Assembly: GCA_963965975.1 (NCBI GenBank)
Contig: OZ014412.1
Span: 11,422,849-11,486,848, forward strand
Direction of reading: 5' to 3'
Source: Xestospongia bergquistia
Lineage: Eukaryota > Porifera > Demospongiae > Haplosclerida > Petrosiidae
DNA length: 64,000 nt
Made by a program: the position numbers and the translations under genes. Shown here piece after piece: positions 2,901 to 53,293 of the stretch. The first letter of the stretch is position 1, and each line of letters begins with the position of its first letter. A model generated the notes under the pieces. It had not been told where the DNA came from. It worked only from the letters and a program-made list of their open reading frames with translations, and did not search any database.

Positions 2901-4023
2901 ATATATAGAGTAAACGGCCAATAATTGGCCACGCACATTCAGCGGACACCACTGAACAACATTACGTTGGTAATACTATCTTTTCCGACGAGTCCACGTT
3001 AGACCTAGGCAAACTACTTCGGTACACAGGTCCATAGATTAAACGATGCTAAAGCAGACTAGCAGTCATAATATCTGTAATAAAATTTAAAAATCAGACG
3101 GTCATATAATCAGACAAAACTTCCATACGACGACACTGCCTACTAATAAACGATGAAGCGAATTAGAGATTCAGTTGTGCGGTTGCTGTAACCAGGAACT
3201 AATGTACTTGCTATCTGAAAAGAATACATCAATTGTTTCCAAGGATGCGTGCTCATTCTCGCTTCCTTGGAAGGATCACCACACGTTAATTATCGGACTC
3301 CACCTTCTTAGGTGTTTATACTTCTGAGCATAGTTAGTACCACATGCTGGAAATTGGAGTTGTGTGTTATTCAGCAGAGCCTTTAAGTGTGACTGATTAT
3401 TTTGGGTTAGATCTAGCTGGATCCTGTCAGAAACCTCATGTGAGTGGGCTTACTTTTTGTGTATGAAAAGAGTTTGATAAATATGTTTGATATAAACCAG
3501 CTCTCTATGGCTAGGTATTGAAAATGTATGTTATTGAAATTTATTGTAACATTGTATACTCAATCTAACACTACGTATAAACAATACTATGCACAATACT
3601 ACAACAGTATGTTGCTCAATAAGACACCAATCAGTGGTTAATGGTCAATTAATGCTTCATGTCAAGTGTTTGCAAGCCTTTCGTGATGACTTTGTACAAC
3701 AAAAATGTTAAATTCAAAAGATTTGCACATGAAACTGCACTACATGTGCTCACAAATCTGACAGTATGTAGTACGTTGCACACTTGAGAGTACTGTATAC
3801 CATTGATTAATCTATAGCCTCTGTAAGAAAGTTATCTTTTTAAGCAAGAGTATGTTAGTGCTGAAAACATGCTCACAATGTGGCTATTAAAATAAAATTT
3901 CTCCATTTGCCAACTTTTTTTAACTAATAATTATATTTCTCAGTCCAATGTCAGGTAAAAATACTGAACACAATTTATACAAAACTTATTTTAAAAATCA
4001 TTGCCTTTCAATTTTTCAGATTA

Positions 4024-26863: not shown

Positions 26864-29800
26864 TTAATTCTGGCTGATATACACACTTTGTGACTGATGT
26901 TGTTTCTCTTCTTCAGATTCCAACATTTTCTTTTCATTTTCATCTTCAGTAAATGTTGTCTCAGCAGACATAATAAACTCTATCTTTGAATCTGTCTTCA
27001 TAGTCTCTAGAGCTGTCTCAGTAATATTCCCCTCATGTTGCCTGATAGTTGTGCGTAAACTGCCTCTAATACCAGAGACACGTCTTTTTTTCTTAGTGAA
27101 AAATGCAGATGATGTGAGTTCATTGAAATCTTTGCCTGTAACACCAAAGAACCATCGCTTCCAAGTATTTCTAACTTCTTTGGAACGAAGACAATGCATT
27201 ATAAAAATAAACAGACCATGAAAAGCAGTGATAATCACAAACAATGCAGCAAAGAGATCTTGTACAATCTTATTGGTATGAATATCTTGAGTAGCTAACA
27301 ATCCAATACCCCATCCCAAACCAAACAAAATAGACAACGTTACAGTTATGGTGATTTGTTGGCGAACAAATGTGATATTATTATTGTTCTTTTTTTTGAT
27401 ATCTGACTGGAAGTTTTTTCTTAGAAGAGAAACAATGATGATGATGAACAACACCCAATTAAACAAATATATAATCAGAAATGGAACTATCATACCAATA
27501 TAGTATGGCTCATTAAAGGCACGGCAACTATATAATAATAAAATGTAGACATTTTATACACAAACATAAGAAATGTACTTACAAATGATCACTTAAGTAA
27601 TTTTTATAATTGGGAGCAAAACAGAACAAGACAATGAACAATGGAGTAACTAAAAGTAAGAAATAGTTATATAGTATATTATGTCAATGATATTAAGTAC
27701 TTACTCCATGATGATATGGTAGCTTTTATAACAAAATGATGAATTTTTCTTCCAAGAACAATAACTAAATTCATATATAAATTAATAGCCTCAGCAGCCA
27801 TGATCATAAAAGTTGCTAAAAAGAAATATTGCAATACAACAGCTGTAACAACACAGAGTCCAGGGATAGTACGACTGTGGACAGCAAAAATAAAGGCAAT
27901 ATAGAGACCCATTAAAGAAAAACACAAGTTTAGAAGAAGTTGTCCATGATCAGAAGTGAGTAGTTTCCTATCAGGACAACATAATAAAGTGAAGATAAAT
28001 TAATAATATACTTGTTAGCAAAGTAAGAGATGATAGTAATAGTCAGACAAAAGATAGAGATAATGATACCAATGTAAGTCACAGAATCTAAGAACAACGT
28101 TAGTCCAGTTTGTTCCATTGGTTCATTAACAACAGGAGATACATCCTATAAATCATCATCATAATAAATAATAAAATTAATTCTTTCATTACTTACCAGT
28201 AATATAGCAAAATTAGTAAGATGATTACATTCACATAGAATTTCTGTTTTATTAGTAGTAGTGTTATGACATCCTTTATTAGACCAGTCTCCATATTCAT
28301 CTAACAGAAGCAGTTATCTTATAACAGTAACTAACTCAACTTACTGTCTAAAGATTGATTCCAAAATGAACATTGTGGAGATGACCCATTAAAATTCTAT
28401 AGGGAAATTACAGTGACTATTATTAAACACATACCACAATACTTACTGGATTAATCAGGAAACTAAGACCTACTGGAGGATCCAGTTCATTTATTCTATC
28501 TGTTCCTACAACAGTAGTTGAGATGATGACACTACCAATCTCAAGAAAGTTATTATTTCTTCTCAAGAATAGAGAGTCAGTAATGAATACTGAATAAGTG
28601 ATTCTAGTATTATTAGTAATATTTGGAATTGTACTCAGTAAATTGTATGGTAAACTAATAGACGCAGTATGTTGTTGACTAGTTTTTCCAAATACTAAAT
28701 CATTAGAGTTAAGAGTTTGATTTCCATCTGAAAATCCTCTATAATTTACACTGAATGTTTGACCAGATTGTGTAAATTCTACAATATCCACTTGTTGTAT
28801 AGATACAGCAAATGATTGTTGTGTTATTATAACTGGTTCAGAAATATTAGTAATTGGTATACTCTCTACAACTGACTCAATAACTTCTAACATTCTATAT
28901 ATAAATAGACAATATTGATATCTGATAGTATATAAGCTAACTGACTTAGCTGATGTGTTAGATTTTTCTTGGCTAATTTGTAAAGTTTCTTGATTGACAT
29001 TTACAATATTGTCAACTACTTCAAAAAAGGCCTTAGACAACTACATATAAAATAACAAATATTTGTCAGAAAAATTGCAAAGGATGTCTTACAGTAAAAT
29101 TTCCTGATACATCTTGTGTAGCTGTTATTAGGACACTCACACTTGCTATCACTTCAGTAGAACCTAATCTACTGCTATTGCTGGTAAGGTTCTCCAATTG
29201 TTTTATTTTTTTTACAACTGGTGCCTAAACAAAATTAATAGTTTCAATCAATATTACAGTTGAACATGTATGACTAACATTTCTTAGGCCACATATTTCA
29301 CGAGTTAGATCACTGAAATTACAAGCTGCTACATTTGGTTCAGTCCACATACCTCCACTGGTGAAGTCTCCTCCACAATATCTAGTAGCTTGAAGTATTC
29401 CTCTTTCTTCTGAACTCTTATTACCACAAGGACAACTCTTGATTACTTGTACTCCAATGTTAGTTTCAGGCCAGAAAATAGTGATATTAAGATCTTGTCT
29501 ACCAGAATGTGATGGTATCATAGTATTGGTAGCAGGACAACCATCTTAATGAAGTTATAGATACTCAATTTAATTTAATATAATTGACATACCAAATCTG
29601 TTCACTTTATCTAATGAAATATTAACATTGATTTGTATATTTAGTGCAGCCAATTGTTGTTGTACTCCAACTCTGAGTTGCTCATTAGCTTCATTCTTTG
29701 TTACCAAAGTAACAACAATAGGAATAGTATTAAGTTGTGCAGTGTAACTGTAATTTAAAGAGAGGAATGCTATGTCATTGATCTAGACATACATACTTAC

Positions 29801-32800
29801 TTAATGTTACTTGAATCAAGTTGTAGGAATAAAAAGAAAGTATTTGAATTGTTTGGTAAACTGTTACCAGAAAGTAAACTGTTACTCTATAAAATGAATT
29901 ATAATATATGGCTCTTTATATCAATGGAGAATACCTGATGAATAATACTCTGGATTATCTCCAATACAGTCCTATTGTTTGTCTCATAATCATCTGATAT
30001 GTGTATCTCAGCTTTATATTGAACAACATCTATATTGAATATTAATTTATCAATAAAACTTTTTTCTTCATATCTTAATTAATACCTGAAATGTATAATA
30101 TAACACATGAAGAGTTTACTGAGATAGTACTTCCTCTAATTATACTCTTAGCTTCACAGTGATAGAATCCTCTATCATTTAAACTCAGTTCAGTAAAAAT
30201 CAATACAGAAGGGTCATTGTTATTATTTAGAATTAACATATCATTTTTATACCACAAAATAGTAGGGATAGGATTACCAGTAGCTCTACAAGTAAGATTA
30301 ACAGTGGAATAGAGATTCCCTGAAGTATTTCTAGGTGGTTGTGTAATTTCTGGTAAAATATAGATTACCACAACTAATTAATTAAACATAATGTAACACA
30401 GTATGCATTGCTTAATATAAAGTTACCTTGTTCACAATTAATACCAGTATATCCACTAGAACAATCACATACATATCCATTACTCAAACTGTGACATATA
30501 CCATATTTACCACAAGGAGAATTCAAACAGTAGTTTATTGGTAAAGCTGAAAATAGACAATTACAAATGAAAATCATTTAAGTCACTTACGTTCAACTAC
30601 TTGGAGTACATATGGTGTCATCAAAACAGTTCCAGACTTAACTCTATTATCAGCTTGACAAGAGTAGTTACCATTATCATTTCCTCTCAAATCTTTGATT
30701 GTAATCACACTTGTAGTAGGAATATAGTTTGTGTGAAAACCATTGGACTCCTGTGATAATACTATTGTTACTCTGCTTGTGTTCAACAAGAGTTGTTCAT
30801 TTTTTCTCCATATAAAAACAGGTTGTGGAATACCATCAGCAGTACAGTTGAATGACACATTTTGTCCTTTATGTTTGGTAACAAATGTTCCAGTATTGTT
30901 TAATATGACTGCATTAACTAACGATTAACAAGATAGTAAATTGAGCTCTTCCAAACTGTATTACTAATAGTGTATGTCAAATGAATTATTATATATGCAT
31001 ATATTTGTTGTTTAAAATCTTTTAAACTGGTTGCCTCATGGACTTTAAAATCATGAATTAACAAAAACTAACTTACTGTAAACATTTAGTGTAGAGTTAA
31101 TTGAGTCATTACCAAAAGCATTGATGACTCTGCATTCATATGTACCAGTATCTTTTGAAACAACTAGATCCAATATCAAAGTACCAGGATCTGAATCACC
31201 ACTTAGAAATTGTGAGCCATCTTTGTACCATTTCAAATGTAGAGGAGAACTACCCTGATAAAGTCAAAAATCACTTAATACTCTATAGAACACAAACTAA
31301 TCACTAACTTGTGTTATATTACATCTAATAAGAACAGTTGTACCATTGGCTACTATAGCATCTTGTCCAACATCAATAGTAACATTAGGAGGTATTAGTG
31401 CTTTAGGACTAAGTGGTATGTTAGTAGCAGGTGCTTTAGAGTGACGAGCAATCAGTGGAGCAACTAAACATAATAAAGACCAAATAATTACAAAGATTTG
31501 AATTATGAAAACTTTGTAGTGACCTGCTTCTATTTACAACTGAAATTTCTTAAGTGACTTACGTTCAACTACTTGGAGTACATATGGTGTCATCAAAACA
31601 GTTCCAGACTTAACTCTATTATCAGCTTGACAAGAGTAGTTACCATTATCATTCCCTCTCAAATCTTTGATTGTAATCACACTTGTAGTAGGAATATAGT
31701 TTGTGTGAAAACCATTGGACTCCTGTGATGATAAAATTGTTACTCTGCTTGTGTTCAACAAGAGTTGTTCATTTTTTCTCCATACAATAACAGGTTGTGG
31801 AATACCATCAGCAGTACAGTTGAATGTTACATTTTGTCCTTTATTTTTGATAAAAAATGTTCCAGTATTGTTTAATATGACTGCATTAACTAACGATTAA
31901 CAAGATAGTAAATTGAGCTCTTCCAAACTGTATTACTAATAGTGTATGTCAAATGAATTATTATATATGCATATATTTGTTGTTTAAAATCTTTTAAACT
32001 GGCTGCCTCATGGACTTTAAAATCATGAATTAACAAAAACTAACTTACTGTAAACACTGAGTGTACAGTTAATTGAGTCATTACCAAAAGCATTGATGAC
32101 TCTGCATTCATATGTACCAGTATCTTTTGAAACAACTAGATCCAATATCAAAGTACCAGGATCTGAATCACCACTTAGAAATTGTGAGCCGTCTTTGTAC
32201 CATTTCAAATGTAGAGGAGAACTACCCTGATAAAGTCATAAAATCACTTAATACTCTATAGAACACAAACTAATCACTAACTTGTGTTATATTACATCTA
32301 ATAAGAACAGTTGTACCATTGGCTACTATAGCATCTTGTCCAACATCAATAGTAACATTAGGAGGTATTAGTGCTTTAGGACTAAGTGGTATGTTAGTAG
32401 CAGGTGGTTTAGAGTGACAAGCAATCAGTGGAGCAACTAAACATAATAAAGACCAAATAATTACAAAGATTTGAATCATGAAAACTTTGTAGTGACCTGC
32501 TTTTATTTACAACTGAAATTTCTTAAGTGACTTACGTTCAACTACTTGGAGTACATATGGTGTCATCAAAACAGTTCCAGACTTAACTCTATTATCAGCT
32601 TGACAAGAGTAGTTACCATTATCATTCCCTCTCAAATCTTTGATTGTAATCACACTTGTAGTAGGAATATAGTTTGTGTGAAAACCATTGGACTCCTGTG
32701 ATGATACAATTGTTACTCTACTTGTGTTCAACAAGAGTTGTTCATTTTTTCTCCATACAATAACAGGTTGTGGAATACCATCAGCAGTACAGTTGAATGT

Positions 32801-33410
32801 TACATTTTGTCCTTTATTTTTGATAACAAATGTTCCAGTATTGTTTAATATGATTGCATTAACTAACGATTAACAAGATAGTAAATTGAGCTCTTCCAAA
32901 CTGTATTAGTAATAGTGTATGTCAAATGAATTATTATATATGCATATATTTTGTTGTTTAAAATCTTCTAAACTGGTTGCTTCATAGAGTTTTAAATAAT
33001 GACTTAACAAAAAATAACTTACCGTAAACATTTAGTGTAGAGTTAATTGAGTCATTACCAAAAGCATTGATGACTCTGCATTCATATGTACCAGTATCTT
33101 TTGAAACAACTAGATCCAATATCAAAGTACTAGGATCTGAATCACCACTTAGAAATTGTGAGCCATCTTTGTACCATTTCAAGTGTAGAGGAAAACTACC
33201 CTGATAAAGTCATAAAATCACTTAATACTCTATAGAACACAAACTAATCACTAACTTGTGTTATATTACATCTAATAAGAACAGTTGTACCATTGGCTAC
33301 TATAGCATCTTGTCCAACATCAATAGTAACATTAGGAGGTATTAGTGCTCCAGGACTAAGTGGTATGTTAGTAGCAGGTGGTTTAGAGTGATGAGCAATC
33401 AGTGGAGCAA
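26864..33410 (-). CDS. adhesion G-protein-coupled receptor (Ig/EGF ectodomain, GAIN, GPS, 7TM)
   Basis: Cell-surface receptor with autoproteolysis at a GPS. Exon lengths and phases all agree. Order: three two-Ig cassettes (33,410-30,591), EGF (30,546-30,427, '[18 protein letters not shown]'), Ig (30,349-30,086), exons 30,029-29,935, 29,886-29,801 and 29,747-29,593, a Cys-rich exon 29,544-29,258 ('[12 protein letters not shown]', '[14 protein letters not shown]'), GAIN exons 29,224-29,093, 29,040-28,946 and 28,894-28,447, GPS 28,396-28,345 and 28,300-28,197 ('CSFWNQSL', '[13 protein letters not shown]', cleavage expected between HL and T), and 7TM 28,145-28,012, 27,967-27,705, 27,649-27,583 and 27,527-26,864. 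The helices show '[12 protein letters not shown]' (TM6) and '[12 protein letters not shown]' (TM7), then a ~110-residue tail. Introns are mostly 40-80 nt; one is 33 nt. All frames are open. The 5' end is uncertain: the first Ig exon needs a phase-1 donor, which the exons at 34-45.7 kb supply. Confidence 0.9.
30591..33410 (-). repeat. triplicated two-Ig exon cassette (period ~973 bp)
   Basis: Three cassettes, each of three exons of 155, 178 and 327 nt (33,410-33,256 / 33,200-33,023 / 32,862-32,536; 32,436-32,282 / 32,226-32,049 / 31,889-31,563; 31,463-31,309 / 31,254-31,077 / 30,917-30,591). Each encodes 220 residues with two Ig folds: 'LIRCNIT..', 'LKWYKDG', 'DTGTYECRV' and '[11 protein letters not shown]', 'WRKNEQL', 'NGNYSCQAD'. 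Introns are as similar as exons, so the copies are recent or homogenised. Entry and exit are phase 1, so each unit can be gained or lost without a frameshift. Confidence 0.9.
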
Positions 33411-34053
33411 CTAAGATAGTTAAGGACAGAAATAACTCAAAGATTTTAATTTCAAGGTTAACAGCAGTAATTAAAAAAAGCATATTTGATCACTCAGAAG
33501 TTTACATATGGCTTAATGGCTATAGAAAGGTTGTTATATTGTCATTAATAAACAAGTACATTTAGAAGGAGATGATGCTACTACTATCCCTAATATCTTG
33601 TTCACTTTATTTGTATTGGATTGACATAGAAACATCCCTACATTGACTGTTTTTACAAAAAACTTTATTATACATTATAGAACTTTCTCTCTCGCTCACT
33701 CTCCCTATCTTTCCTTCTTTCTCTCTCTCTCTTAATCATCTGTCATAAAAGTAAACAGCTTTTTTTTCTAAAACAAGTCATTAGGGATAGGGTTTGCAAC
33801 ATCTCAAACAAGCACAAAATAGGAACAAAATATGTACATTATGGAAGACTAGTTTGTGGGAATGTACATTATTGGATAGAGTATTTATATAGTACACATG
33901 AATGCATGCTGCATTCTGAGTTACGTAATCCTGAACCAGATCTAAATCCTGTATAAAATTGTGCATACAAGTGAAATAAAAAGTACCTAGTTAAATATTC
34001 TTTTTAAAAGCAATTTTTTAAACTTTGACTATAGGCTCCAATTTTTGTCTTAC
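33411..34053. other. intron-like spacer with (CT)n tract
   Basis: Contains a pyrimidine microsatellite (33,686-33,732, CT/TTCT repeats). 33,790-33,850 resembles the flanks of the somatomedin-B exons at 36.24 and 37.08 kb. A hydrophobic minus-strand ORF just upstream of the first Ig exon looks like a signal peptide, but is better read as intron because an acceptor 'tatcttag' lies at the exon edge. Confidence 0.5.
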
Positions 34054-34251
34054 CAAGTGTATCAGTTGGAGTAGGTGAAACTGCAGTAGAGGAAAGAGAC
34101 ACAAGGAGACAATTAATATCAGTTATATCATTACAACAATCATTTAAAAAGTGACAGATTTGATCACAATAGCATCCATTATTGCTACAATTTTGTGACA
34201 GGGACCATACACAACATCCTGAATTATTAAGATTAAGTGCCAAACATGAGC
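34054..34251 (-). CDS. somatomedin-B-like exon 4 (part of receptor ectodomain)
   Basis: 198-nt phase 1-1 exon. It encodes 'SCLALNLNNSGCCVWSL', then 'CSNNGCYCDQICHFLNDCC', ending 'DITDINC' and a Ser/Thr/Pro tail. This is the compact eight-Cys somatomedin-B arrangement (CxCDxxC, DCC). Its donor (phase 1) is compatible with the first Ig exon at 33,410. The domain usually mediates protein-protein binding in extracellular proteins. Confidence 0.7.
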
Positions 34252-34305
34252 CTAAAATTAACATAATATGAACAAAATTTAATTTAATTTATAGTGCTCA
34301 TTTAC

Positions 34306-34410
34306 CTTGTGTAACAATTGGTGTAGATGTAACTATAGAGCCACTTGAAGAAGATAAAAAACTTGCTGGAGGATGTGTACTACTTGTCAAAGGGTATGGA
34401 GTTTTAGATT
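34306..34410 (-). CDS. Ser/Thr-rich linker exon
   Basis: 105-nt phase 1-1 exon: 'SKTPYPLTSSTHPPASFLSS' followed by 'SGSIVTSTPIVTQ'. Copies are at 37,441-37,551 and 10,461-10,571; a broken one is at about 48,440-48,535. Probably an O-glycosylated stalk between cysteine-rich modules. Confidence 0.65.
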
Positions 34411-34807
34411 CTGTGTCAAACATAAAAATGGTAAAAATTGATGATTATTATAACAGATAATTTGATCACAAGCATCACATCAGTAACTACGTATGCTACT
34501 ACCTTACGCATGAACTGTTTGGAGGTATATGTCACAACAAAACTAAATTTGACTAGACTAAAATTTGACTAACATAATTAAGTATAGTGATTCCTGTCTT
34601 GGTCAGTCCCATCAAATTGTATCATATACTTAATTGTCTCAAAAAACACATTTGTAATCATACAGTAACTATGTATATATACAGTTACTATATATACACA
34701 ACTATTTGTGGTACCTGTATATATGCATACAAAGGTGTTTTAACTGTGATGCCTTATGACAAAAAGGTCATAAATATTTTAACAAGTGCCCCTTATGACA
34801 AATCAGG

Positions 34808-34856
<49 letters not shown>
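34808..34856. repeat. (TA)n microsatellite
   Basis: Pure TA repeat between a copy of the short interspersed repeat and the Penelope-like fragment. Confidence 0.9.
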
Positions 34857-34857
<1 letters not shown>

Positions 34858-34858
<1 letters not shown>

Positions 34859-35480
34859 AGGATTGAAGGACAAAAGGACAGAGCTCTCACTTTGTTGCTG
34901 TTACTCCAAGTTTCATGCGTTATGGGATCATCAGACAACTGAAAATTACTCTGTTATTCGGTTGGTTATATAGCATCAAGGTGTTAATTATGTCCTGTCC
35001 CTTGAGAAAAGTGCTAAATAGTACTTGTTTTCATGTCGGCACTTTGAGACAAGTTCGGACCTTTTGTTCAGGATGGTGGCGTTGATAATTGAGAGTTTTT
35101 CAGTTAGGCAAAGGTTGCACCGCTTTGTTTTGTTGGAGTAGGCCTGTGCTCTTTGGTTTATTGACCAGGTAATTTTGAATTGCTCACCTTCTTTCTTCAA
35201 TTGCCAAACATATTTCAATAGACCAGGATTGAAGGGCAAAAGGAAAGATCTCTCACTTTGTTGATTTTACTCCAAGTTTCACGAGTTATGCGATCATCAC
35301 TTCAGACAACTGAATACTACTCTGTTTGTAGGTTGGTTATATAGCATCAAGGTGTTAATTATGTCTTGTCCCTTGAGAAATGTGTTAAATCATGCTTGAT
35401 TGATTGATTGATGATCATATAACGCGTGAAACTCGGAGTAACAGCAACAAAGCAAGAGCTCTGTCCTTTTGTCCTTGTTT
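34858..35480 (-). mobile_element. Penelope-like element, truncated, with pseudo-LTRs
   Basis: Minus-strand ORF 35,239-34,988: 'LLKYVWQLKKEGEQFKITW', 'KRCNLCLTEKLSII', 'NKRSELVSKCRHENKY'. This is the C-terminal GIY-YIG-associated end typical of Penelope-like reverse transcriptases. Only the last ~83 codons remain. It is flanked by two direct copies of a ~150-bp sequence (about 35,221-35,395 and 34,858-35,030) that include 'caaggtgttaattatgtc'. A third, partial copy is inverted at 35,400-35,480. Pseudo-LTRs and inverted tails are known for these elements. The repeats carry 'ctgatgatc...gaaac', resembling a hammerhead core. Confidence 0.7.
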
Positions 35481-35509
35481 TGAGTGCTTCAAAAACAAAA
35501 CTAATGATT

Positions 35510-35673
35510 TCAGGAGTTTATTTATGAAATAAAATTTCATTTCCAAATATTTATTAGCATATGCATTGTATGTTAAGTTAAAATCCTTTCTCTTATGTTT
35601 GCTTTTAAGATTACATCTTAATTATGTTTGCTATTAAGATCACATCTTAATTGCAGTAGTCAAATTTAGCCTA

Positions 35674-35723
<50 letters not shown>

Positions 35724-35860
35724 TTGAAGAGTGCTCGATATCATTTAGACAAGCAAGGATTGAAAGGCCATACTTCATAGTTTAGTGTGTTTTCTCTGTG
35801 ATTTGTTGTCTAAACTGTTTATGTTTTATTGAGTTATCATGAACTCTGAAGCAGAGGCAG
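35510..35860 (-). repeat. short interspersed repeat, inverted relative to 10.1 kb, with (TA)n
   Basis: 35,510-35,690 is the reverse complement of 10,083-10,255. A ~30-bp internal duplication is present ('taagat.acatcttaatt' twice). After a (TA)n tract (35,676-35,721), 35,770-35,860 matches 10,280-10,365 in direct orientation. The element has thus been broken and flipped in one locus. Confidence 0.55.
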
Positions 35861-36331
35861 AGGTATAGGAAAGGTCCTAAATTTGACTAACCATGTCTGT
35901 ACACGTAATGCTTAGAAGCCTTGTCTAATCTATAACTAGGTCATAATAAAGGGATTTTATTGAAAGAAACTCTGAAAAGAATTGAAAGATTTTAATCAAT
36001 TTGGAATGAGATAGTATTGTTTTCTACCAATACAGGTCAATGGACAATCTGAGCCATCACTACACAGGCATTGCTACTGCCTGAATGACAATTTTGTCAT
36101 TGGAGTCGCGATAATGTACATTATTAAATACAGCATTTTTGTTTTGACAACTAATAAAATTTGAAAATAAAATAAAATTTGACTACCACAATTATGATGT
36201 GATCCTACATCATTAAATTCATACATTTATAATTATTTTATTATAGGAGTTGGTGAGAATATACATTGTTAGATACAGCATCATTCACATGATTATAAAT
36301 ATGAAATGTGGAACTTCTGATTTTCTCTTAC

Positions 36332-36529
36332 CAAGTGTATAAGTTGGAGCAGGTGAAACTGTAAATGTAGAAGAAGAAACAGGATGACAACCTATGTCAG
36401 CTATATCATTACAACAATCATTATTACTATGACAGTGTTGATCACAGAAGCAGTCTATACTGTAACAAATTCGGGACTGGCTATACAAACAGCATCCAGA
36501 ATAGCCAAGAGTAAGTGCCTTACATGACC
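36332..36529 (-). CDS. somatomedin-B-like exon 3
   Basis: 198-nt phase 1-1 exon with 'SCKALTLGYSGCCLYSQ', 'CYSIDCFCDQHCHSNNDCC' and 'DIADIGC', followed by a Ser/Thr/Pro tail ('FTVSPAPTYTLG'). All expected Cys are present; acceptor and donor are good. Confidence 0.7.
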
Positions 36530-36766
36530 CTAAAATTAACAGATAACAAAAATTTAAGTTAGTTTATAGTGGTGACATACAATGAAAAAGCAAATAAAAA
36601 CTAGGAAATATGCTTTTTCATAAGAATTTCCTACATCATTAAATTCATAAATTTATGATAATTTTGTTATTGGAGTTGGTGGAAGAGATATACATTGTTA
36701 GATGCACCAATGTTTTGAAACAAATGATTTTAAGTATGAAATTTGGAGCTTATAATTTTGTTTTAC

Positions 36767-36925
36767 CATCATATCCAGGATGACAACCTATATCAGCTAT
36801 ATCACTACAACAATCGTTGTTACTGTGACAAGCTTTATCACAGTGGCAGCCTTTATTGCTACAAGGTTTGTGCTTGTGTAGTGAACAACATCCAGCATAG
36901 CTAAGATTAAGTGCCAAACATGACC
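36767..36925 (-). CDS. somatomedin-B-like exon 2
   Basis: 159-nt phase 1-1 exon with 'SCLALNLSYAGCCSLHKH', 'CSNKGCHCDKACHSNNDCC' and 'DIADIGCHPGYD'. It lacks the Ser/Thr tail of the other copies. Splice sites are intact. Confidence 0.7.
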
Positions 36926-37169
36926 CTAGAATTAACAGATATTAAGATTTTAATTAATTTGCAGCGATAACATACAATGCAAAAGGAATAAAAATTAGAA
37001 TATATATATATATATATATATTTTATAAGAATTGATTACATCATTAAATTCATAAATTTATGACAATTCGTTTTTGGAGTAGGTGGGAATGTACATTGTT
37101 GGATACAACATTGTTTTGCCACATACATGATTATATATATGAAATGTGAAGCTTCTGATATTATCTTAC

Positions 37170-37374
37170 CAAATGTAACAGTTGGAATAGGTGAAACTAC
37201 AAGAGAGGAAGAAGAAGCAGGATGACAACCAATATTACTTATATCATGATAACAATAATTATTGTTTGAATTGTGACAGTTTGATGACAATATACATTCA
37301 TTATTGTTATAATATTGTGACAGGGACCATACACAACATCCAGAATTACTGAGATTAAGTGCCAAACATGAGCC
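37170..37374 (-). pseudogene. somatomedin-B-like exon 1, degenerate
   Basis: Homologous to exons 2-4 but several Cys are lost (the CxCDxxC and DCC motifs are gone; 'NCHNSNNNYCYHDISNIGC' remains). The acceptor AG found in the other copies is changed to TG. The donor is still good. The exon is therefore probably skipped. Skipping it keeps the frame because it is a phase 1-1 module. Confidence 0.65.
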
Positions 37375-37440
37375 CATAATTAACATAATATGAAAAATTT
37401 AATTTATTTTGAACAACAAACAATTATAGTGCTCACTTAC

Positions 37441-37551
37441 CTTGAGTAACAGTTGGTATAACTGTAATTATAGAGCCACTTAAAAATGATGAAAAATTTG
37501 CTGGAACATGTGTACTACTTGTCAAAGAGTATGGACTTTTAGATTCTTTGT
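37441..37551 (-). CDS. Ser/Thr-rich linker exon
   Basis: 111-nt phase 1-1 exon: 'KESKSPYSLTSSTHVPANFS', then 'SGSIITVIPTVTQ'. It would be the first exon after the stanniocalcin-like module at 44,970 if the large intron with the gypsy element is spliced out. Confidence 0.6.
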
Positions 37552-37933
37552 CTATATGAAATGGTAATAAAATGATAAGTAATATATGGTGCATGAGATA
37601 AATTAATTACAAGCATCATATTTAAAAGTAACTAAAAGCACCAAGGTGCAGTATCTCCCTACAGTTTGTGTAGTGATTTTGTTTGTTTGCTTTGCCACAG
37701 CACGAGAACTTACTATATATTCAGAATATATAAAATAAGTAACAGAATTTAAAGAAGACTTCTTTATTTTATGCGAACAATGTAGGAGCTACATTTTGTT
37801 AAAGCTAGTCATGGTTACAAAATACTGTAGTAAATGAGATTTTCCAAAACCAAGACTTGTTGCTTATGGCTCACTTATAAAAGTAATATATGGAGCTTTT
37901 TTAAATAGAGAGCATATACTATGTTAGCCTTTT

Positions 37934-37968
<35 letters not shown>

Positions 37969-38169
37969 TATATTAATTAGCAGGTTTTTCAGCAGAAATT
38001 ATGTTTGGACTTTGATCAATATCACCAATTTCATTGATAGATGACAATGTCAAAAGATTTGTAAGTCAACAAAAGACGTCAAATCCCAAGGTGAAAAAAT
38101 AACAACTAAAATGTCAGTTTTGCTTTAGTTCAATGTTAACAATGATTGCTGATGGCTATACAAGTGTAT
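37552..38169. other. intron-like spacer
   Basis: No coding signal. Contains a (TA)n tract (37,937-37,964). It leads into the gypsy fragment at 38.17 kb. Confidence 0.4.
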
Positions 38170-38740
38170 TGTCAGGAACTATATAAAGAACACAGTCATT
38201 TGAGTGTGAGTCCAGGTTAGAGTCATTTTCTCTCAACTCATTGTCATTATGAAAAAGTTTAATAGAATCAAAGTGTCAAAAATGAAAATCATGTTTCACA
38301 ATTTCCCATGAGCTTGTTGTCATTGGTCCTAACAATTCAATGATCCTTACAGAAATCCACATGGAAATCTTTGATTAATACAAAGACTCCTACATTAAAA
38401 GTATTATGTATACTATCCTGCTAATGTGTTATCTGTGAACTTTTTGATTCTGTTCTACATAACTCGTAAGATTTAGAAACAAGACATTTAATCTTGATGT
38501 GGGATGATGTTTGAATAATAGCTCAGTTGTAGAGTGAGAAATTGTAGTTTTAGGAGTTATTCTGCATGTAAACAAGAATTGTGTCAAATTGGTTTCTATG
38601 GAACCACTTGATAACTTCTTCAGAGATAGCTTAAAACTTTATATGAATCTCTCTGTTACAACAAGATGCTGGATGATACAAGATATTTTTCCTATAGGTT
38701 TCAATATGAAGTACTAGCATATCATGGAGGTTTGCCCCAA
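38170..38740 (-). mobile_element. Ty3/gypsy integrase C-terminal fragment, copy 2
   Basis: Reverse-strand frames give 'ISHSTTELLFKHHPTSRLN', 'FLNLTSYVEQNQ', 'TFNVGVFVLIKDFHVDF' and 'LGPMTTSSWEIV', the C-terminal part of a gypsy integrase. It runs opposite to the gypsy element that follows, so it comes from another insertion. It corresponds to 541-1,250. Confidence 0.65.
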
Positions 38741-39666
38741 GTTCGAGAGGCAACTTACTAAGTAGCACCCCTAACAGTTCACTGATTTCAATGGATTCAC
38801 TGATTTGAATGCTTTAAAAAAGCATCTGGTCTAGAAGGTAAAGATGAAGAAATTCAAGTGTATACCCTCATGTACTCAATGGGAGAGAAGCAGATGATAT
38901 CCTGCAATAATATAGCTTATAGGATGCCAATCAGAAGAACTACAATATTGTCAAACAAAAGTTAGAGAGCAGAAAGTTAAAAGAAGAAATATTACCTTTG
39001 CACTGGCCGAGTGTAATATCAGAAAAAAGGAGCAAGTTGAAGGTGCTGATGTTTTTATTACAGCACAATACAGTCTTGCAGAATGTTGTAGTTATGGCAC
39101 ACTACAGGATGAAATGATCTGGATGGAATTAAGGTTGGAATATGTGATGCAAAATTGTTGAAGAAATTACAACTAGATCCTAAATTAACTTTGGACAAAG
39201 CAGTGGCTCAGGTATGTCATGCCAAGAGTGTCAAGCAGCAACAACCTCTATTGAGAGGAGGAGGTGAAGGACTATCACACACCCCAGTTGGAGCAGTCCA
39301 AAAGGGATTTGGACAATGAAATGCTGAGCCTCCAGACAAGTTATAACAAAATTCAAAAGTTCAGTCCACTCAATAGTAGCAAAGTTTGTTCCCGATGTGG
39401 GAAGACACCCACACATGATTTTCTGTATTGCCTAGCCAAGACTACTGTCTGTTTAAAATCCAATAAGCATGGACATTTTCAAGCAGTATGCAGATCAAAG
39501 AAAAATGACAAAGAGCAAAATTGTTAACGAGAATAATGAGAATAATTTCTTAGGACCCATCAGGATTAAACATGATAGCCTCTGAAGTCCTGGACAGTTA
39601 CTTTACAACCCAATGGGATATTAGTTGACTTTCAAATTGAAACAGGAGCTGACGTAACAGTCATAA

Positions 39667-39773
39667 TGTAATATAATATTCCTCAAATAACAATTTACAA
39701 AAAAATCAGTTTTAAAACATGTGCTCTCCTTTATTAATTATTAACTTTAATTAATGTTAATTACTATCCTACA
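39667..39773 (-). repeat. 3' LTR of the nested element
   Basis: Direct repeat of 41,182-41,289. On the minus strand it follows a polypurine tract. Differences from the partner are few, so the insertion is younger than the gypsy host. Confidence 0.8.
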
Positions 39774-41181
39774 TAACCTCCCTCTCTTCAAGAGCTCGTC
39801 TCAATCGACAATGTGATATAGGGAGCATATCTATCCAGAACCCTGTGTGTGTGAGTAGGAGTTTTCCTATAGCTATTTCTTTGACCATGTTGTGTTCTCC
39901 CCGTAGTCCACCTCTAGAGCTACAGTTGTACCATTGATAGTAACAGATTTGTCTTGTAGTCTAAACAGACATTGAAGTTACCCAAGAAATCAGTACCCAA
40001 AGTGACAGGTGCAACCAGTTGAGGGGCCACATACATCTCGTGTGTCACAGATAATGTACCAATATAAAGAGGTACAATGGCAATGTTGCGTAATTCCATC
40101 TCATTGTAGGAAGCTGTGATAACATTTATAGAGGATGATATTGAGTTATAGCTCAAGCCAGCTTGTTCAAGCAAGTGTTGACTAATCAATGACACATAAG
40201 AACCACTGTCTAATAAAATAGCACAGTGAATATCTCGTATTTTCCTGATATTTTTGAGAGTCATTTAATATTTACATGCATATCCAGTGTCGAGGCCAAG
40301 TGTATTACTTCCGGTCACCTCCCCTGGCCTGTAGAGACGACCAGCTGGCGTTTCCCCAGCACTGAGCATTTGTGTGGTCATATTTGCCACAGTTAAAACA
40401 TTGAAGGTAGTACAGCAATTCTTTGCAATATGCCCAAACCGTCAACACCTGTAGCATTGCTGGGAATGTATATTGGTTGCCTTTTTCGGTATATCCTGAT
40501 ATCTGACTGCAGCAATACTAAGGGCTCTGCTGTCACTTTCAAATGAATTAAGTCTGGCACCAATATCAAGTATCATTTCTTCTATTTTCTGTAAACCAGG
40601 AGTACTGCCAGTAACTGACAGAGTGGTAAGATGTGCTGCTTCCTCAGGTAACTGTTCATTGTTCATCATGAGCAAGCGTGCTTTTGCTAAAGCATTTTTG
40701 TTAGTTGTGATATCAGCTGGCGAAGATCACATTAGTTCGGCAATTTCTGTTAGGAGAACATCGATGAAATGGTGAAGAAACATTTATTCCTTCGCCTCCC
40801 AAGTTAACTTTGGCATGTCTATTTCAAGTAGTTTCTTACAAATCTATACAAAAAAACAGGTGAGGATTTTCCCAGCAAAGCCTGAAGCGTTTGAACTCAC
40901 TAATTCCATGAAAACGCATTTCTCTTGTTCTAAATTTTGCCCTCATTGCTCTCACCAACGTAGAGTAATCTGTTGTATCTTCATCCGCCATCTCCAGGTA
41001 GGCTACCAGAACTTCCCCTTTGAGAAATGTCGGAATTTTACTTGCCTTTTTGTTGTCATCCCATCAATTGAAATTAGCACATAATATCAAACTTCACTAA
41101 TCACTCCTCTAGTTCATCGCCATCCTTAATAGTTTCTGGTAAGGCCACATGCCTATCTGCCATCTCAGACTCTGCTACCAG

Positions 41182-41289
41182 TGTAATATAATATTCCTCA
41201 AATAACAATTTACAAAACGATCAGTTTTAACAACATGTGCTCTCGTTTATTAATTATTAATGTCAATTAATGTTAATTACTATCCTACA
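41182..41289 (-). repeat. 5' LTR of the nested element
   Basis: TG...CA ends. Followed (minus strand) by the initiator-Met-type primer-binding site. Flanked outside by 'ataa', the same as at the other end. Confidence 0.8.
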
Positions 41290-43689
41290 ATAACACCAGC
41301 TACCCACTAAAGCATTGGTAGCCCTCCTCTACTGTCTGCTAACAGAAATTTAAATTTGTGACAAGTCTCAGACTCTACTTCATGAGTTTTCTAAGCTTTT
41401 ACAAGGACTAGGCTAAATGGAGTATGCATGATTCAATTAAAGGAAGATACTCATCCATATGCACTCACTACACTATATTGTGTCGGCATTCCATTAATGA
41501 AGTCAGTCAAAGAAGAGTTAAGCTGTATGGAAGAGTTGGGTGTAATATCATATGTTGATAAACCAATAGATTGTTGTTGTAGTATGGCTGTGGTGTCTAA
41601 GAAAAACAACGAGGTTTGTATCTGTGTAGACTTAACTAAGCTAAATCAAAGTGTCAAATGAAAGCGACATCTTTTGCCAGCTGTAGAGGAAAAACGATCA
41701 CAACAACCTGGAGCCAAGATCTCCTCTAAACTAGATGCAAACTCCAGATTTTGGAAATTACCCCTGTCTCCTCAGTCAGCTCTATTGACCATAGTTAATA
41801 TTCCCTATGGTTGTTTTTGGCTTCAAAATTACCATTTGGTATCACATCAGGACCAGAGCATTTCCAAAGATGTATGTCAGACATTATTAATGGACTAGAA
41901 GGAACAGTCAGTATGATAGATGACATTAGTTTACAGTACAACTCAAGAACATGACCAACATCTCTGAGATGCAGGGTTAACTCTGAACAGACCAAAGGGC
42001 ATAAATTTTCAGTAGAGCAGGTGGTATTTCTTGGTCAGCTAATTGATTGTTCTGGATTTCAGGAAAGATGAAAGCTATCCCATCCAAGTGATAGAGCTTC
42101 TGATTAATGTGTCAGAAGTACTATGTCTTCTTGGAGTAGTTTATCAAATGAGCCCAAATACAGCAAAAACGACTCTTCCATTAAACGTGGTCTTAGTTAA
42201 AGGTAACTGGTGGATATATAGTGACTCATAACAATCTGGATTCAAACAAATTAAGAAACATATCAGTTTACACCAATTTTAACAACTTTAGTTCGTCTGT
42301 TTCATTCTAAGAACGTTGATGAATGACCATTTTGAGTTCAGAGATTTTATCTTAAGGTGATGCAATATGATTTCACTATCTCCTACATATTGATTGCTGA
42401 TACCCTATCTAGTGCACCTGTCATTCAGACAATTGAAAAGGACCATGATCTTCTACAAGACATGAATTTTTATGTTAAGTCTGTTATTAAAATTTTACCT
42501 ATCACTGAGAAAAGACTAGAAGACATCCGATGCCACCGATGAAATATATCAGCAACTACCCAATTATTGCAGAGATAGGTGCCCTAAAAAAGAAGCTAAT
42601 TTATCCGTAAAGCCATATATCAGGTGTCATTAGAACTCTCAATTACAGAAGAATTATTTATGTGAAGAAACAGAGTCATTATCCTCAAGGCACTAAGATC
42701 AGGAGTTCTTAAACAAATATACACAGGATATCAAGGAATACATAAATGTCAGAGCATGCAGGACAGTCTGTGTGGTGGCCAGGGATATCTAAGGAGTTAG
42801 AGGAATTAGTAAATAATTATATAGAATGCCATAAGATGTAATGACAAAGATCTGAACCACTGATGCAATCTACATTACCAGAACTACCTTTGGAAAAGGT
42901 GGGAATAGACCTTTTTGAGTGGAGGTAGAGTACATATCTAGATCTTCTCGTTGTAGACTACTATTCTAGATTTATTGAGATTGCTAGGTTGAGCAGACCC
43001 AGAGCTGAAAATGTCTTAACCATATGAAGAGTATATTTGCTTGACATGGAATACCAGAGATGGTTATATCAGACAGTGAACCCAGTTTACTGGAGACATC
43101 TACTAAAAATTTGCACAACATTGTCAATTAAAACATGTTACTAGTAGTAGTCCATATTACCCACAGAGCAATAGTGAAGCTGAGAGAGCAGTTGGTTCTA
43201 TAATACATTTACTCAGAAAGAGAAAGATCCTCACCTCACCTTATTGGCATGCAGATCTACGCCATTTGCTAATGGATTTAGCCCTTCAAAATTGTTAATG
43301 TCAAAGAAACTTCAGACAAATATCTAAATTCGACACATACCAAATGTACCAAATATGACATTAGTAGAAAAGAAGGAAGAAGAACTTAAATCAAAGCAGA
43401 AACACAACTATGATAATATCATGATGTCAGAGAGCTGCCTTTATTGAATCAAGCAAACACAGTTTTGATTCCAAATCAAGATGCTGAAGTAGTTGTGAAA
43501 CGTAGCTCCCAGGTCTTATGAACCAATCCCTTCAAATGGAACTTATCGTCATAACCCTAGAGACATAATTATATCTTCTAATGCTGGAAATGATTCACAT
43601 GATCCAGTGACAGAAGAGACTGGGAATTCAAAGCAACAGAGACATCCTAATTGTTTGTCATTTTTAGTGATGCACCAATTCTCTGCAGA

Positions 43690-43990
43690 AATACACAAGA
43701 GTCTCATTGTATGTTTCATACTAGATTCATATAGATCATATTTGGAATTATTTGTTTGTGCCTCTCTCAGGGCAAGTCATTGGTTCATCAGGTTTATAAT
43801 TGATCCTTTGGTATCAGTAATATGGAGAAAGATCATTTACAATAGTAAACAACACATCTGGTGGTTTCATTACAAAAATGATGAAGTCATGAATAATGCT
43901 CTTCCTTAATTATATAAGTGCTGGTCAGATAGCAAACTACTTGAGCTAAACCAAAGAGAAAATAAGTATATACTTGTGTTGAAAAGGAAT
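43690..43990 (+). repeat. dispersed repeat shared with 2.52-2.90 kb
   Basis: Uninterrupted version of the site that carries the pogo-like transposon at 2.9 kb. It overlaps the end of a 100-codon plus-strand ORF (43,607-43,909) whose start belongs to the gypsy tail. No family motif. Confidence 0.55.
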
Positions 43991-44079
43991 TATCCATTGT
44001 TGATTCATACTTAGCAGGGGATTTTGCAAAACGTTATTCTTACAGATTCATAGGCATTGTAATAAAGGCATTTTTCCTG

Positions 44080-44640
44080 GTCTGATCACATTTCTGCAAA
44101 GTGCCACAAAGCTAAGTTATTCAGTCTTCTTTACAGACAATTCTGTAAAAAATTGCTTCCTGAATCTGTCAATCAGTTATACTTAGCCTAATCTGTCCAC
44201 ATTTGGATTATCCAGCTCAACTCTACACACAGCTGCAATAAGATATTAAAAGCTTCAAGATGTTTAAAAATATGCTCACAAAATAATATTGGATGGAACA
44301 TGACGACTAGAATGACCTCATCTCTCACGGAGATTCCAACTTAAATCTACAGAGATCATTTTTGAAACTTAATCTTAGATTGTCCACAACATCTGTTATC
44401 TCCAAGAAGTGTTTAATTTGTCTCCTATTAACTTATTAAGATATTTTAGTTGTGTTTGTGTTAGTTTCTAGAAGTCAAGCTTCACTATTTGTTAATGGTA
44501 TTACTTTTTAAGATAATAGTGTTTATGGTTATGATAAAACTTTGGTATGTCTGTCACCCTATATTTATTCAATTAACATTAACATCATATTGAACACATC
44601 ACTAGGATATACTTAAAAATCTTCTCCCCAATATAAATTA
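44080..44640 (+). mobile_element. LINE reverse transcriptase C-terminal fragment, copy 2
   Basis: Broken plus-strand frames give 'FSLLYRQFYKKLLPESVNQ', 'LYLALICPHLDYPAQLYTQL', 'FVNGITF' and 'SSPQYKLTTM', the end of a Jockey/CR1-type ORF2. Orthologous to the 8.6-kb fragment within the duplicated block. Confidence 0.6.
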
Positions 44641-44969
44641 ACCACAATGGATTTTTAATGATGTAAAATATCACACACACACATGCATAAGATACACATA
44701 TGTAACCTCATTTTCACCACTTCATGGAAAATGTATATGACCTAATTTGTGAAAATAGACCATTAAGTTTGTTAAAACATCTCAAAAAATATCTTTGCAT
44801 ACATACAGTTACTATATATACACAACTATTCGTGATAACTATATATATGTATACAAAAGGTGTTTTGACAGTGATTCCTTATCACCAAAAAGGTCACAAA
44901 TGTTTTGACAGAAGTGGCCCCTTTTTGCAAATCAGGTCATATATAATATATATATATATATATATTTAC

Positions 44970-45679
44970 CTCTGAGAATATCTTTCAAGGATTGAAGAAT
45001 TTGACGTGCAGCAAAGTTTGGAGCATTTGCTATCCAATTATTCACAGAAGACAAGAAACTATCAATTACCTGCCCACTACATGTAGTTGCTGTTTGAAGA
45101 ACCTACAGTGATATATTATCATCAATGATGTATATGTAAATATTATATATAGATAGTATTAGTTTCAAACCTGTTGAATTGCCTGTTTATTCCAGTAATT
45201 ATTTAAGTCAAAATCATCGAACCCAAGACAATTCAAGTTAGTCTCATTTAAAAGAATATCAGTACAGAATCCATTGTCAATATAACAGGATTGATGACTA
45301 TTGAAAGCAATTTCTTGTAATTGACTGCATGTTCCATTTGAGTTATAGACATTGCTGTTCAAAATGGCCTTCATAAAGCATCTCTTCATATTATCAACCA
45401 ATATTTGACCCTATATGATAATAATGAATATTGTATAGAAAAATAATAAATACTTACAGCAGATGTAAAACAACTTTGCTTGTTTTTTAAATGGTGGCAG
45501 TATCTGTTACCATAGGCAAGAGGATATCCATTAGTACCACATTGAAATTTTAACTCTACACACTGACTATAGAAATCACAGTTACTAGCATTAGCTAGAG
45601 CTGTACAGTTCTCAGCTTTGACAGTAATTATCAGATAGAACACCATTGAAAACACGAGCAGCGTCATATTGTAATCCAT
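44970..45679 (-). CDS. stanniocalcin-like N-terminal module (copy B), possible 5' end of the receptor gene
   Basis: Exons 45,679-45,458 (222 nt), 45,410-45,171 (240 nt) and 45,102-44,970 (133 nt) encode 198 residues and end in phase 1. Signal peptide: 'MTLLVFSMVFYLIITVKAE'. Then 'CTALANASNCDFYSQC', 'GYPLAYGNRYC' and a second exon with 'CSQLQEIAFNSHQSCY', 'GFCTDI'. 13 Cys in the module. The Cys spacing and 'CSxxQ...CY...C' recall stanniocalcin; this is a by-eye suggestion. Downstream phase-1 acceptors (37,551 Ser/Thr exon) would join it to somatomedin-B and then Ig exons. Alternatively it is a separate secreted-protein gene like copy A, cut off by the gypsy insertion. Splice sites and frame are intact. 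Confidence 0.6.
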
Positions 45680-51375: not shown

Positions 51376-53293
51376 TCACATTGTTATCTCAATACATATT
51401 AGTCTGTTGTTTTCAAAATCACAAATATACAAATATCCTTCTTTGTCAAATATTATTCCATATGGATCATGAAACTGACCCACACTGCTACCTAGTCCTC
51501 CAAAAGAACATAGAAAATTACCATTAGTAGTGAAGATAGAGATGCGATAATTATCCCGCTCTATAATGTATATTAGATTACCGGTATTATCATCTATTAC
51601 AATACCTACTGGACCACTAAGTTGTCCAGGACCAGATCTTTCAGTACCAAACAGAGATAAAAACTGTCCCTCAGGAGTGAATATCTGGATACAATGATTA
51701 TTATAATCAGCCACATATACTAACCCTCGTCTGTCAATAGCAACACTTCTTGGATTATTAAATTTTCCATTAGCTTGTCCTTTGTACCAAAAGTGTGGGA
51801 GAAAGTTAAATCAGGATTTAAGACTTGTATACGATTGTTACAACAATCAGCAATATAGATATGTCTAGTTATAGGAGAAATGGTGATACCACAAGGTACA
51901 TTAAATTCCAGTGATCCACTACCTTGTTTTACCAACTGATTTAATATATCTTCCATCCATAGATATCTTCTGGATCTTGTGATTATCAGAAACAAAAATG
52001 AACAAGTTGTCTGGAGTTATAGCTAAACCACGAGGTTTAGAAAATTTGACATTTTCCCTTACTCCACCAAATGACTCACTTTCTTTCCATCTCTATCCAG
52101 TATTGTGACATAGTTACAACCATACTCACTTACTATAATATGTCCATCATCAGTCACAGCAACTCCCCGGGGTTTGTTAAGTTCAGGTATAGTACATACT
52201 GGAGTGATGTTATCAAGGTAAGGATTAAAAAGGATCACAAGTGAGTGACTATCAACTTGGACATCATTAACTTGGATACTAAATTGATGATGACCATTAG
52301 TTATAGGACTACAACATATTGTATATACTCCAGGATGGTTGGTGGTAGTGATTGTAGCTATTATGGGTGTGTGTAGTTGTACCAGCTGGTAGTATATTAC
52401 ATCTGATTGATGATAGAGGAACAGAAAGAAGACTGGAATCATAAAATTGGATAGAAAATAGAAATGAACTGTTTTATTATGCATGTTGAAGATCAATTTT
52501 CTTGGCAATATTTCCAATATTATGTAGTCTGCCTAAGATTTTGCTGTCTTTCTTAAAGTGTATATCAGCTTTCTCTCTAGGATTAAAATCTTCAATGTTA
52601 ACCTGTTCAGTCACATGACTCATACACTCTATCATACGTTTTGTAGATGTTATGACTTCTTGAGGATGGCCTATCTTAAGAATATGCTCTACAAATTCCT
52701 GGCAATCCTTCAGTTGACTCAATGTTGTTTCAGCTGATTTCTTCTTTTCTAACAAGACTTCCAATGTACTATCAATAACTGTGTCCATCTCTCTAGTGAG
52801 CTGTCTCTCAGATTGACGAAGAATACAGATCATTTCTTTCACCATGACATGTATCTCATCTTTGACAACTTCTCCTTGCTCTTTGATCTCATTCTCTCTG
52901 TCTGTGAGAGCAGCAGTGACCTTGTCACTAACTGACATAAGATTTGTTTTCAATATTTGACAATGTCTGGGATAGCAGTCAGAGACTAAGTCATAATCAT
53001 GATCTCTATGAATTCGTACAGTACAGTCATGACAAATGAGCTCTTCGCATGTTCCACAAATATTTTCAAAGGTTCATCATGAGTGGAACATTTTATCTCC
53101 TTTTTTTCTTGGGAACCACTTTAGATGCAGAGGTTGCTACCTCATCAAGACTTGCTATTTGATGATCACCGAACTGAGCCCAATTTTTGTGAACATTAAT
53201 ACATTTTTGACAGAGAAACTTAGCATATTCTTTACAATAACCTGTGGCATTTGTTGTAGTACAGTTATCACAGGTTATCTGTTGATGTCCTGA
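51376..53293 (-). pseudogene. TRIM-NHL-type protein (B-boxes, coiled coil, filamin repeat, NHL), frameshifted
   Basis: Order on the minus strand: B-box 1 ('ITCDNCTTTNATGYCKEYAK'), B-box 2 ('CSTHDEPLKIF', 'CEELICHDCTVRIHRDHDYD'), coiled coil (52,953-52,560), a filamin-type Ig ('PGVYTICCSPITNGHHQFS'), and NHL propeller blades ('LNKPRGVAVTDDGHIIVSEY', 'VPCGITISPITRHIYIADCC', 'LSGPVGIVIDD', 'FHDPYGIIFDKEGYLYICDF'), ending at 51,376. There is no RING upstream; the first exon seen starts at an acceptor near 53,293. TRIM-NHL proteins are E3 ligases or RNA regulators when RING is present. Frame changes occur near 53,104, 53,059, ~52,500, 52,082, 51,929 and 51,779. Nearly all are one base, mostly at homopolymers, with otherwise open, well-conserved frames. 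So it is either a very young pseudogene or a gene hit by sequencing errors. Confidence 0.75.

Follow-up and report, generated by a model that had tools for sequence, protein, structure and literature searches.

A candidate adhesion GPCR gene with a stanniocalcin-like N-terminal domain in a tandem gene family of Xestospongia bergquistia

Adhesion G protein-coupled receptors (GPCRs) are cleaved at an HL/T motif, which yields a two-part receptor that is activated via a tethered peptide. Stanniocalcins are known from vertebrates as free secreted hormones. The adhesion GPCRs of Amphimedon queenslandica contain Ig, I-set, EGF, HRM, GPS, and 7TM domains and include SRCR-headed members, according to the passages considered here (Krishnan et al., 2014, PMC4302439). 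In amphioxus, an expansion of adhesion GPCRs (SMB/Kringle) carries Somatomedin B (SMB) and I-set domains, as described in passages of the corresponding report (BMC Evol Biol, 2008, PMC2246102). Part of a study on Aplysina aerophoba describes a shift in the expression of another adhesion GPCR gene after microbial signals (PMC6208332).

The DNA analyzed here is a stretch of 64,000 nucleotides from X. bergquistia (the window; C2:11,422,849–11,486,848), and the genome searched for related sequences comprised 146 Mb on 21 contigs. Its introns are compact, which together with the sponge-like architecture of the receptors would fit a demosponge. The candidate receptor on the minus strand of the window resembles those of A. 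queenslandica in its Ig, EGF, HRM, GPS, and 7TM domains, and an SRCR head like that of the Amphimedon members is found in the receptor R7 at C2:7.38 Mb. In contrast to the X. bergquistia genes, neither stanniocalcin nor SMB, VWA, or IgGFc is named in the text passages and the Figure 4 legend of PMC4302439, and a text search of this article for somatomedin, stanniocalcin, and VWA gave no result. The amphioxus receptors are similar in that Somatomedin B and I-set domains occur on adhesion GPCRs; they differ in that the passages of PMC2246102 do not mention stanniocalcin, and the SMB-like units described below fail the Pfam cut-off. The preliminary description of this DNA knew of no receptor with such an architecture. 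As far as the passages of both articles go, this applies to the stanniocalcin-like (SCL) head, which is new, whereas SMB was known from amphioxus (PMC2246102) and Ig, EGF, HRM, and SRCR from Amphimedon (PMC4302439). No stanniocalcin-bearing adhesion GPCR appeared among the titles and abstract openings listed from the PMC literature, a collection whose coverage most subscription journals lie outside.

Exon chain and domains of the window gene

The minus-strand exons between 45,679 and 26,864 form a single open frame, which runs from an ATG at 45,679 to a stop codon at 26,864. Without a weak SMB-like exon (37,373–37,170), the gene comprises 32 exons encoding 2,096 amino acids; with this exon, it comprises 33 exons and 2,164 amino acids. 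All internal boundaries are AG/GT with the sole exception of the acceptor of the weak exon, which is TG. The frame survives the skipping of this exon because it has phase 1-1. The compatible phases, good splice sites, and open frames reported earlier for this interval, with one broken module exon, were confirmed. The original exon list, however, omitted an exon between G1 and G2 (G1b, 29,801–29,886, phase 0 to 2), which completes the chain and is required because the phases do not join without it. Module borders had been described as phase 1, which holds for the borders between SCL, linker, SMB, Ig, and EGF modules; additionally, phase 0 was found at the SCL1/2, SCL2/3, and Iga/Igb borders. 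The chain is more than a product of chance, since the exon series, its order, and its strand recur in paralogues with mean dN/dS values of 0.26–0.71, depending on the module.

The first SCL exon (45,458–45,679) contains the start codon, a hydrophobic signal-like leader, and the first third of the stanniocalcin-like domain. It is followed by SCL exon 2 (45,171–45,410) and SCL exon 3 (44,970–45,102), which ends in a phase-1 donor. Next in the chain are the Ser/Thr-rich linker exon A (37,441–37,551, phase 1-1), the degenerate SMB-like exon without an AG acceptor, which is probably skipped, two further SMB-like exons (36,767–36,925 and 36,332–36,529), the Ser/Thr-rich linker exon B (34,306–34,410), and another SMB-like exon (34,054–34,251). 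Iga, Igb, and Igc exons arranged in three tandem units (30,591–33,410) account for six Ig domains, followed by an EGF-like exon (30,427–30,546) and the seventh Ig exon (30,086–30,349). The remaining part consists of the ectodomain exons G1 (29,935–30,029), G1b, and G2 (29,593–29,747), an HRM-like exon (29,279–29,544, under the Pfam cut-off), four exons of a presumed GAIN region before the GPS (28,345–29,224), the GPS exon with its HL/T motif (28,197–28,300), and four exons for the seven-transmembrane region, the cytoplasmic tail, and the stop (26,864–28,145). All of these exons lie on the minus strand.

The full window protein was scanned with Pfam at E ≤ 0.01. Ig_3 matched in seven stretches, 7tm_2 with an E-value of 1.8e-25 (90.1 bits, cut-off 20.6) over profile positions 4–250 of 250, and GPS (PF01825) with 1.8e-15 (57.6 bits, cut-off 22.5). 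The HL/T motif was read directly in the GPS. The 7TM part has the adhesion-GPCR features tested, 7tm_2 and GPS. The same full-protein scan gave no match for EGF or Stanniocalcin; EGF was above the cut-off on a fragment only (23.8 vs. 21.5 bits). HRM, which was absent from the earlier domain list, matched a fragment with 21.2 bits (cut-off 26.2). GAIN gave no Pfam match at E ≤ 0.01 in the window protein, and the label was assigned to the presumed region because its exons precede the GPS.

The predicted receptor would begin with a leader and the SCL domain, followed by Ser/Thr linkers with SMB-like knots, seven Ig domains, and one EGF domain, and would continue with the HRM-like domain, the part encoded by the GAIN-region exons, the GPS, and the seven transmembrane helices. 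The sequence of the window carries both HL/T and TNFAILL. The receptor may be cut at HL/T in the GPS, with both parts staying together, and its long arm could bind ligands of the cell surface, the matrix, or microbes. Pulling or a ligand-driven loss of the arm would expose the tethered TNFAILL peptide, which would activate the 7TM region and might thereby signal to a G protein.

Identity of the stanniocalcin-like and SMB-like domains

The Pfam profile PF03298 had been proposed as a check of the stanniocalcin-like head, and its outcome was divided. The window copy reached 22.3 bits and was thus 0.7 bits short of the cut-off of 23, whereas all five paralogues scored singly were above it (23.7–32.1 bits) with most of the profile covered. 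One of these five members, L011, belongs to the receptor gene P7. Overall, 12 of 13 SCL members matched PF03298 at E ≤ 0.1, the best with 9.4e-8. The genome search with this profile returned three matches, all under the cut-off; they are few and weak because the search scores exon by exon. Neither the SCL profile nor an individual SCL protein retrieved a stanniocalcin chain from the PDB sequences at E ≤ 10. The latter result, the single-exon genome matches, and the score of the window copy would fit an unrelated cysteine-rich helical domain that matches the stanniocalcin profile by chance. This explanation is somewhat unlikely, as it has to accommodate the matches of 12 of the 13 members and the five single scores above the cut-off. 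We therefore speak of a stanniocalcin-like domain, whose membership in the Stanniocalcin family appears borderline. Like the stanniocalcins, most SCL members scanned match the profile across most of its length. Unlike them, the domain is predicted here to head a larger protein, as read from the sequence alone.

The knot of Somatomedin B has the core motif C-x-CD-x2-C ... CC-x-D, and this core is invariant across five aligned SMB-like units. The assignment of these units to PF01033, suggested initially, did not hold: The best score was 11.8 bits compared to a cut-off of 23.1, and one of the three window units matched at E ≤ 1. Four of five SMB-like members matched the profile at E ≤ 10 (best E-value 0.32), and the best PDB match of the units was vitronectin with an E-value of 0.33. 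The window units are SMB-like only, since Somatomedin B membership fails the Pfam cut-off. With stanniocalcin membership borderline and Somatomedin B under the cut-off, both names keep the ending "-like."

The tandem family and the extent of the gene

Genome matches numbered 70 for SCL exon 2, 98 for the last 7TM exon, and 80 for the GAIN-region exon G6, some of them being pieces of one place. Among these matches, SCL and 7TM were close together only at C2:10.95–11.47 Mb. Each of the 11 G6 matches in this region is preceded by SCL on its own strand (ten on the minus strand and one, an inverted gene, on the plus strand), and 10 of the 11 genes gave a match to the last 7TM exon. In the plus-strand gene (P+), SCL, SMB, Ig, and G6 are present, and no match to the last 7TM exon was obtained. 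The window gene is one of 11 members of a tandem family. The SCL head and the Ig-to-7TM tail are common to all members, and between them lie VWA plus X, IgGFc-binding-like, or linker/SMB modules. By position, P2, P4, P6, and P8 are of the VWA type, P1, P3, P5, P7, and P+ of the IgGFc type, and the window gene and P9 of the linker/SMB type; these types rest on a partial reading of P6 and P9, and for P1, P2, P5, P8, and P+ the reading covered at most the stretch between SCL and the first Ig plus the surroundings of the last 7TM exon. P4 is a single frame from end to end (25 exons, 1,835 amino acids) with an SCL–VWA intron of 45 bp, and P3 is a single frame without a stop from SCL to Ig4 (12 exons, 1,545 amino acids). 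The 5′ end of P9, termed copy 2, lies in the window (10,461–11,584, minus strand), and its 7TM match is located outside at C2:11,408,153. Of 15 SCL places in the cluster, four (11,204,367; 11,263,848; 11,312,191–11,312,390, which is broken; and 11,319,686) have no following G6. Between P5 and P4, additional incomplete 7TM and Ig exons (C2:11,037,011–11,037,508 and 11,030,174–11,031,751) are perhaps debris of another copy.

SCL places outside this region had no G6 or 7TM match nearby. The SCL genes at C1 22 Mb, C2 5.86 and 8.2 Mb, and C6 1.17 Mb have the same kind of SCL exons and, on the same strand, VWA, IgGFc, or SMB-like exons nearby, but in contrast to the cluster genes, no match to G6 or the last 7TM exon was found near them. 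Large clusters of SCL, IgGFc-binding-like, and SMB-like matches without 7TM matches are located at C1 21.9–22.35 Mb and C2 5.86–5.88 and 8.17–8.31 Mb; between C2 5.868 and 5.879 Mb, 24 SMB-like matches occur, mostly at a spacing of about 435 bp.

The weak point of the exon chain had been seen in a gap of about 7.4 kb between 44,970 and 37,551. The neighboring copy 2 supplied its counterpart, an intron of 327 bp between SCL3 and the linker exon; the three SCL exons and the linker exon of this copy join in frame. The intron matches the window at 44,962–44,793 (80%) and at 37,600–37,440 (76%), where the match extends into the linker exon, and about 7.2 kb of extra DNA remains in the window between the two parts (37,601–44,792; 7,192 bp). 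A single clean insertion does not account for the gap, because its SCL-side end (44,964–44,039) additionally matches the next intron of copy 2 and because a remnant of the X exon is present at 37,921–37,822 on the minus strand (82% over 100 bp to P4). The X exon is open in the VWA-type paralogues. One 88-aa frame tested for the "gypsy" element reported in the gap gave no Pfam match at E ≤ 0.001. Considering the dead SMB acceptor, the X remnant, and the about 7.2 kb by which the first long intron is enlarged, the window gene might be a decaying pseudogene among functional paralogues, but with 2,096 open codons and intact splice sites and GPS this is very unlikely. Because of the dead SMB exon and the X remnant, the window copy may be a decaying member of the family.

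The exons from 45,679 to 26,864 quite probably constitute one adhesion GPCR gene of about 2,100 residues with an SCL N-terminus, which would give rise to a single transcript. This central claim of the preliminary description stands as the best-supported reading in view of the exon chain, the phases, and the paralogues, with the single mRNA as a prediction. SCL3 ends in a phase-1 donor at 29 of the 30 loci read, so that no stop follows SCL3 at these 29 loci; at the remaining locus, L012, the frame is broken. Alternatively, each tandem unit might contain two genes, one for an SCL-headed secreted or one-TM protein and one for an Ig-EGF-GPS-7TM receptor whose first exon escaped detection. As SCL also occurs at loci with no 7TM close by, tandem duplication of a two-gene unit would result in the same pairing of heads and tails. 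Two genes per unit are nevertheless quite unlikely. In P3, the IgGFc-Iga-Igb unit is duplicated and IgGFc2 is placed between Ig pairs inside the Ig array. Hence, the module that comes after SCL also occurs within the receptor portion, and the duplication spans the border postulated between two genes. P7 contains, by position, an extra IgGFc-binding-like exon as in P3.

A signal-peptide start of its own for the Ig-7TM part had been named as evidence that would speak against a single gene. A search of the 500 bp next to the first Ig for a signal or start exon, covering hydrophobic candidates with donors from a short list of sequences, revealed no candidate common to more than two of 14 copies. 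The window copy, however, has an in-frame upstream ATG with a hydrophobic, signal-like stretch at the first Ig exon, which favors two genes. Such an ATG was found in three of 13 evaluable copies (the window copy, P4, and P5), the fourteenth copy, P9, being unreadable in this respect. A separate start at the first Ig exon was rejected, as 10 of the 13 copies are without an in-frame upstream ATG. The hydrophobic stretch was interpreted as a translated pyrimidine tract because one of the internal Ig copies in the window gene is preceded by a comparable stretch.

A possible terminal exon with one transmembrane helix was also considered. Such an exon, behind a very short intron of 23 bp, may form the end of the stand-alone SCL-VWA-X gene at C2:10.606 Mb. 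In the three VWA-type paralogues read, the possible TM exon is open in P4, which would agree with two genes, as would the stop that is soon met when the reading continues past X. The TM exon is broken in P2 and P8, while the mean dN/dS is 0.48 for SCL, 0.65 for VWA, and 0.33 for X. Its decay there is weak evidence for a fusion, since the exon is also broken (two TAA) in a second stand-alone SCL-VWA-X gene at C2:10.612 Mb. The 327 bp between SCL3 and the linker in copy 2 contained no TM-like terminal candidate, which likewise argues for one gene. TM-like candidates were listed in the SMB4-Iga1 intron of the window gene, but they were nested readings, three in number, of a single stretch and unconvincing by eye. 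Both forms might also be produced via alternative 3′ ends, namely the long receptor and, as a shorter product, an SCL protein that is secreted or has one TM. The open TM exon in P4 and a weak TM-exon match at the P6 locus (E-value 0.011, open frame of 57 codons) point in this direction; the window gene, in contrast, contains only the 100-bp X remnant and yielded no convincing match in the TM-exon search, and with the broken exons of P2 and P8 this makes the use of both ends in the family unlikely. In some members, a short alternative form is possible on account of the open exon in P4 and the possible TM end at C2:10.606 Mb.

Selection, exchange of heads, and neighboring sequences

Selection was estimated from mean pairwise NG86 values, from which the P3–P7 pair was dropped. 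The mean dN/dS of SCL was 0.48 (27 pairs), calculated for eight of ten SCL-bearing genes, as P1 and P5 were removed by the coverage filter. The values were 0.65 for VWA (3 pairs), 0.33 for X (3), and 0.71 for IgGFc (9). For the tail, they amounted to 0.56 (Ig a–c), 0.28 (EGF), 0.39 (Ig4), 0.32 (HRM), 0.36 (GAIN region, 5), 0.43 (GPS), 0.26 (TM1-2), and 0.41 (TM3 and tail). The dS of SCL was 0.30 compared to 0.08–0.20 in the other modules, for gene sets that differ between modules; the raised value is consistent with exchange between genes.

The SCL tree (32 rows, L012 left out) and the 7TM tree (28 rows, L063 and L065 left out, with stops read as X) disagree for P9 and P8. The head of P9 groups with the window gene (97/95) and its 7TM with P3/P7 (98/94). 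The head of P8 groups with P4/P2, while its 7TM groups with P5/P1 (94/74, weaker). Either tree may accommodate a single origin of the receptor label. Due to the discordance of head and 7TM in P9 and P8, an origin of receptor diversity from exon shuffling can be tested directly here. The cluster shows an exchange of heads between receptors in an animal that is probably early-branching, and the combination of variable heads with a constant tail suggests a recognition or adhesion repertoire. A more far-reaching and decidedly doubtful proposal is that an adhesion GPCR acquired a genuine stanniocalcin fold, the SCL head, and that the cluster is a live shuffling locus, in which VWA, IgGFc-binding, and SMB heads and modules, as found in matrix- or mucus-like proteins, reassort onto a constant mechanosensing 7TM tail. 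Such a locus would provide a variable recognition repertoire without somatic recombination, perhaps for self/non-self or for microbes.

In a sister cluster at C2:7.27–7.58 Mb, the Ig-to-7TM part is present but SCL matches are absent, and none of the SMB matches among the 150 of 361 candidates scored lies there. In the one upstream region read, SRCR domains occupy the head position. At C2 7,377,000–7,388,934 (L072, L041), the Ig-EGF-GPS-7TM receptor is present in an SRCR-array version with three tandem Ig-EGF units.

Other coding sequences were detected in the window as well. VWD (2e-20) and EGF frames on the minus strand at 61,578–63,020 probably represent exons of a further modular protein that is secreted or membrane-bound; a third open frame at 63,375–63,887 near them had no Pfam match. 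Two minus-strand frames at 51,379–53,073 contain a B-box zinc finger (24.2 bits, cut-off 24.1) and NHL repeats and perhaps represent a TRIM-NHL-like gene. On the plus strand, DDE_1 transposase and Psq helix-turn-helix frames at 3,931–5,577 perhaps belong to a pogo/Tigger-like element. They are located in the long gap between the linker exon of P9 (10,461) and the SMB-like exons of this gene outside the window.
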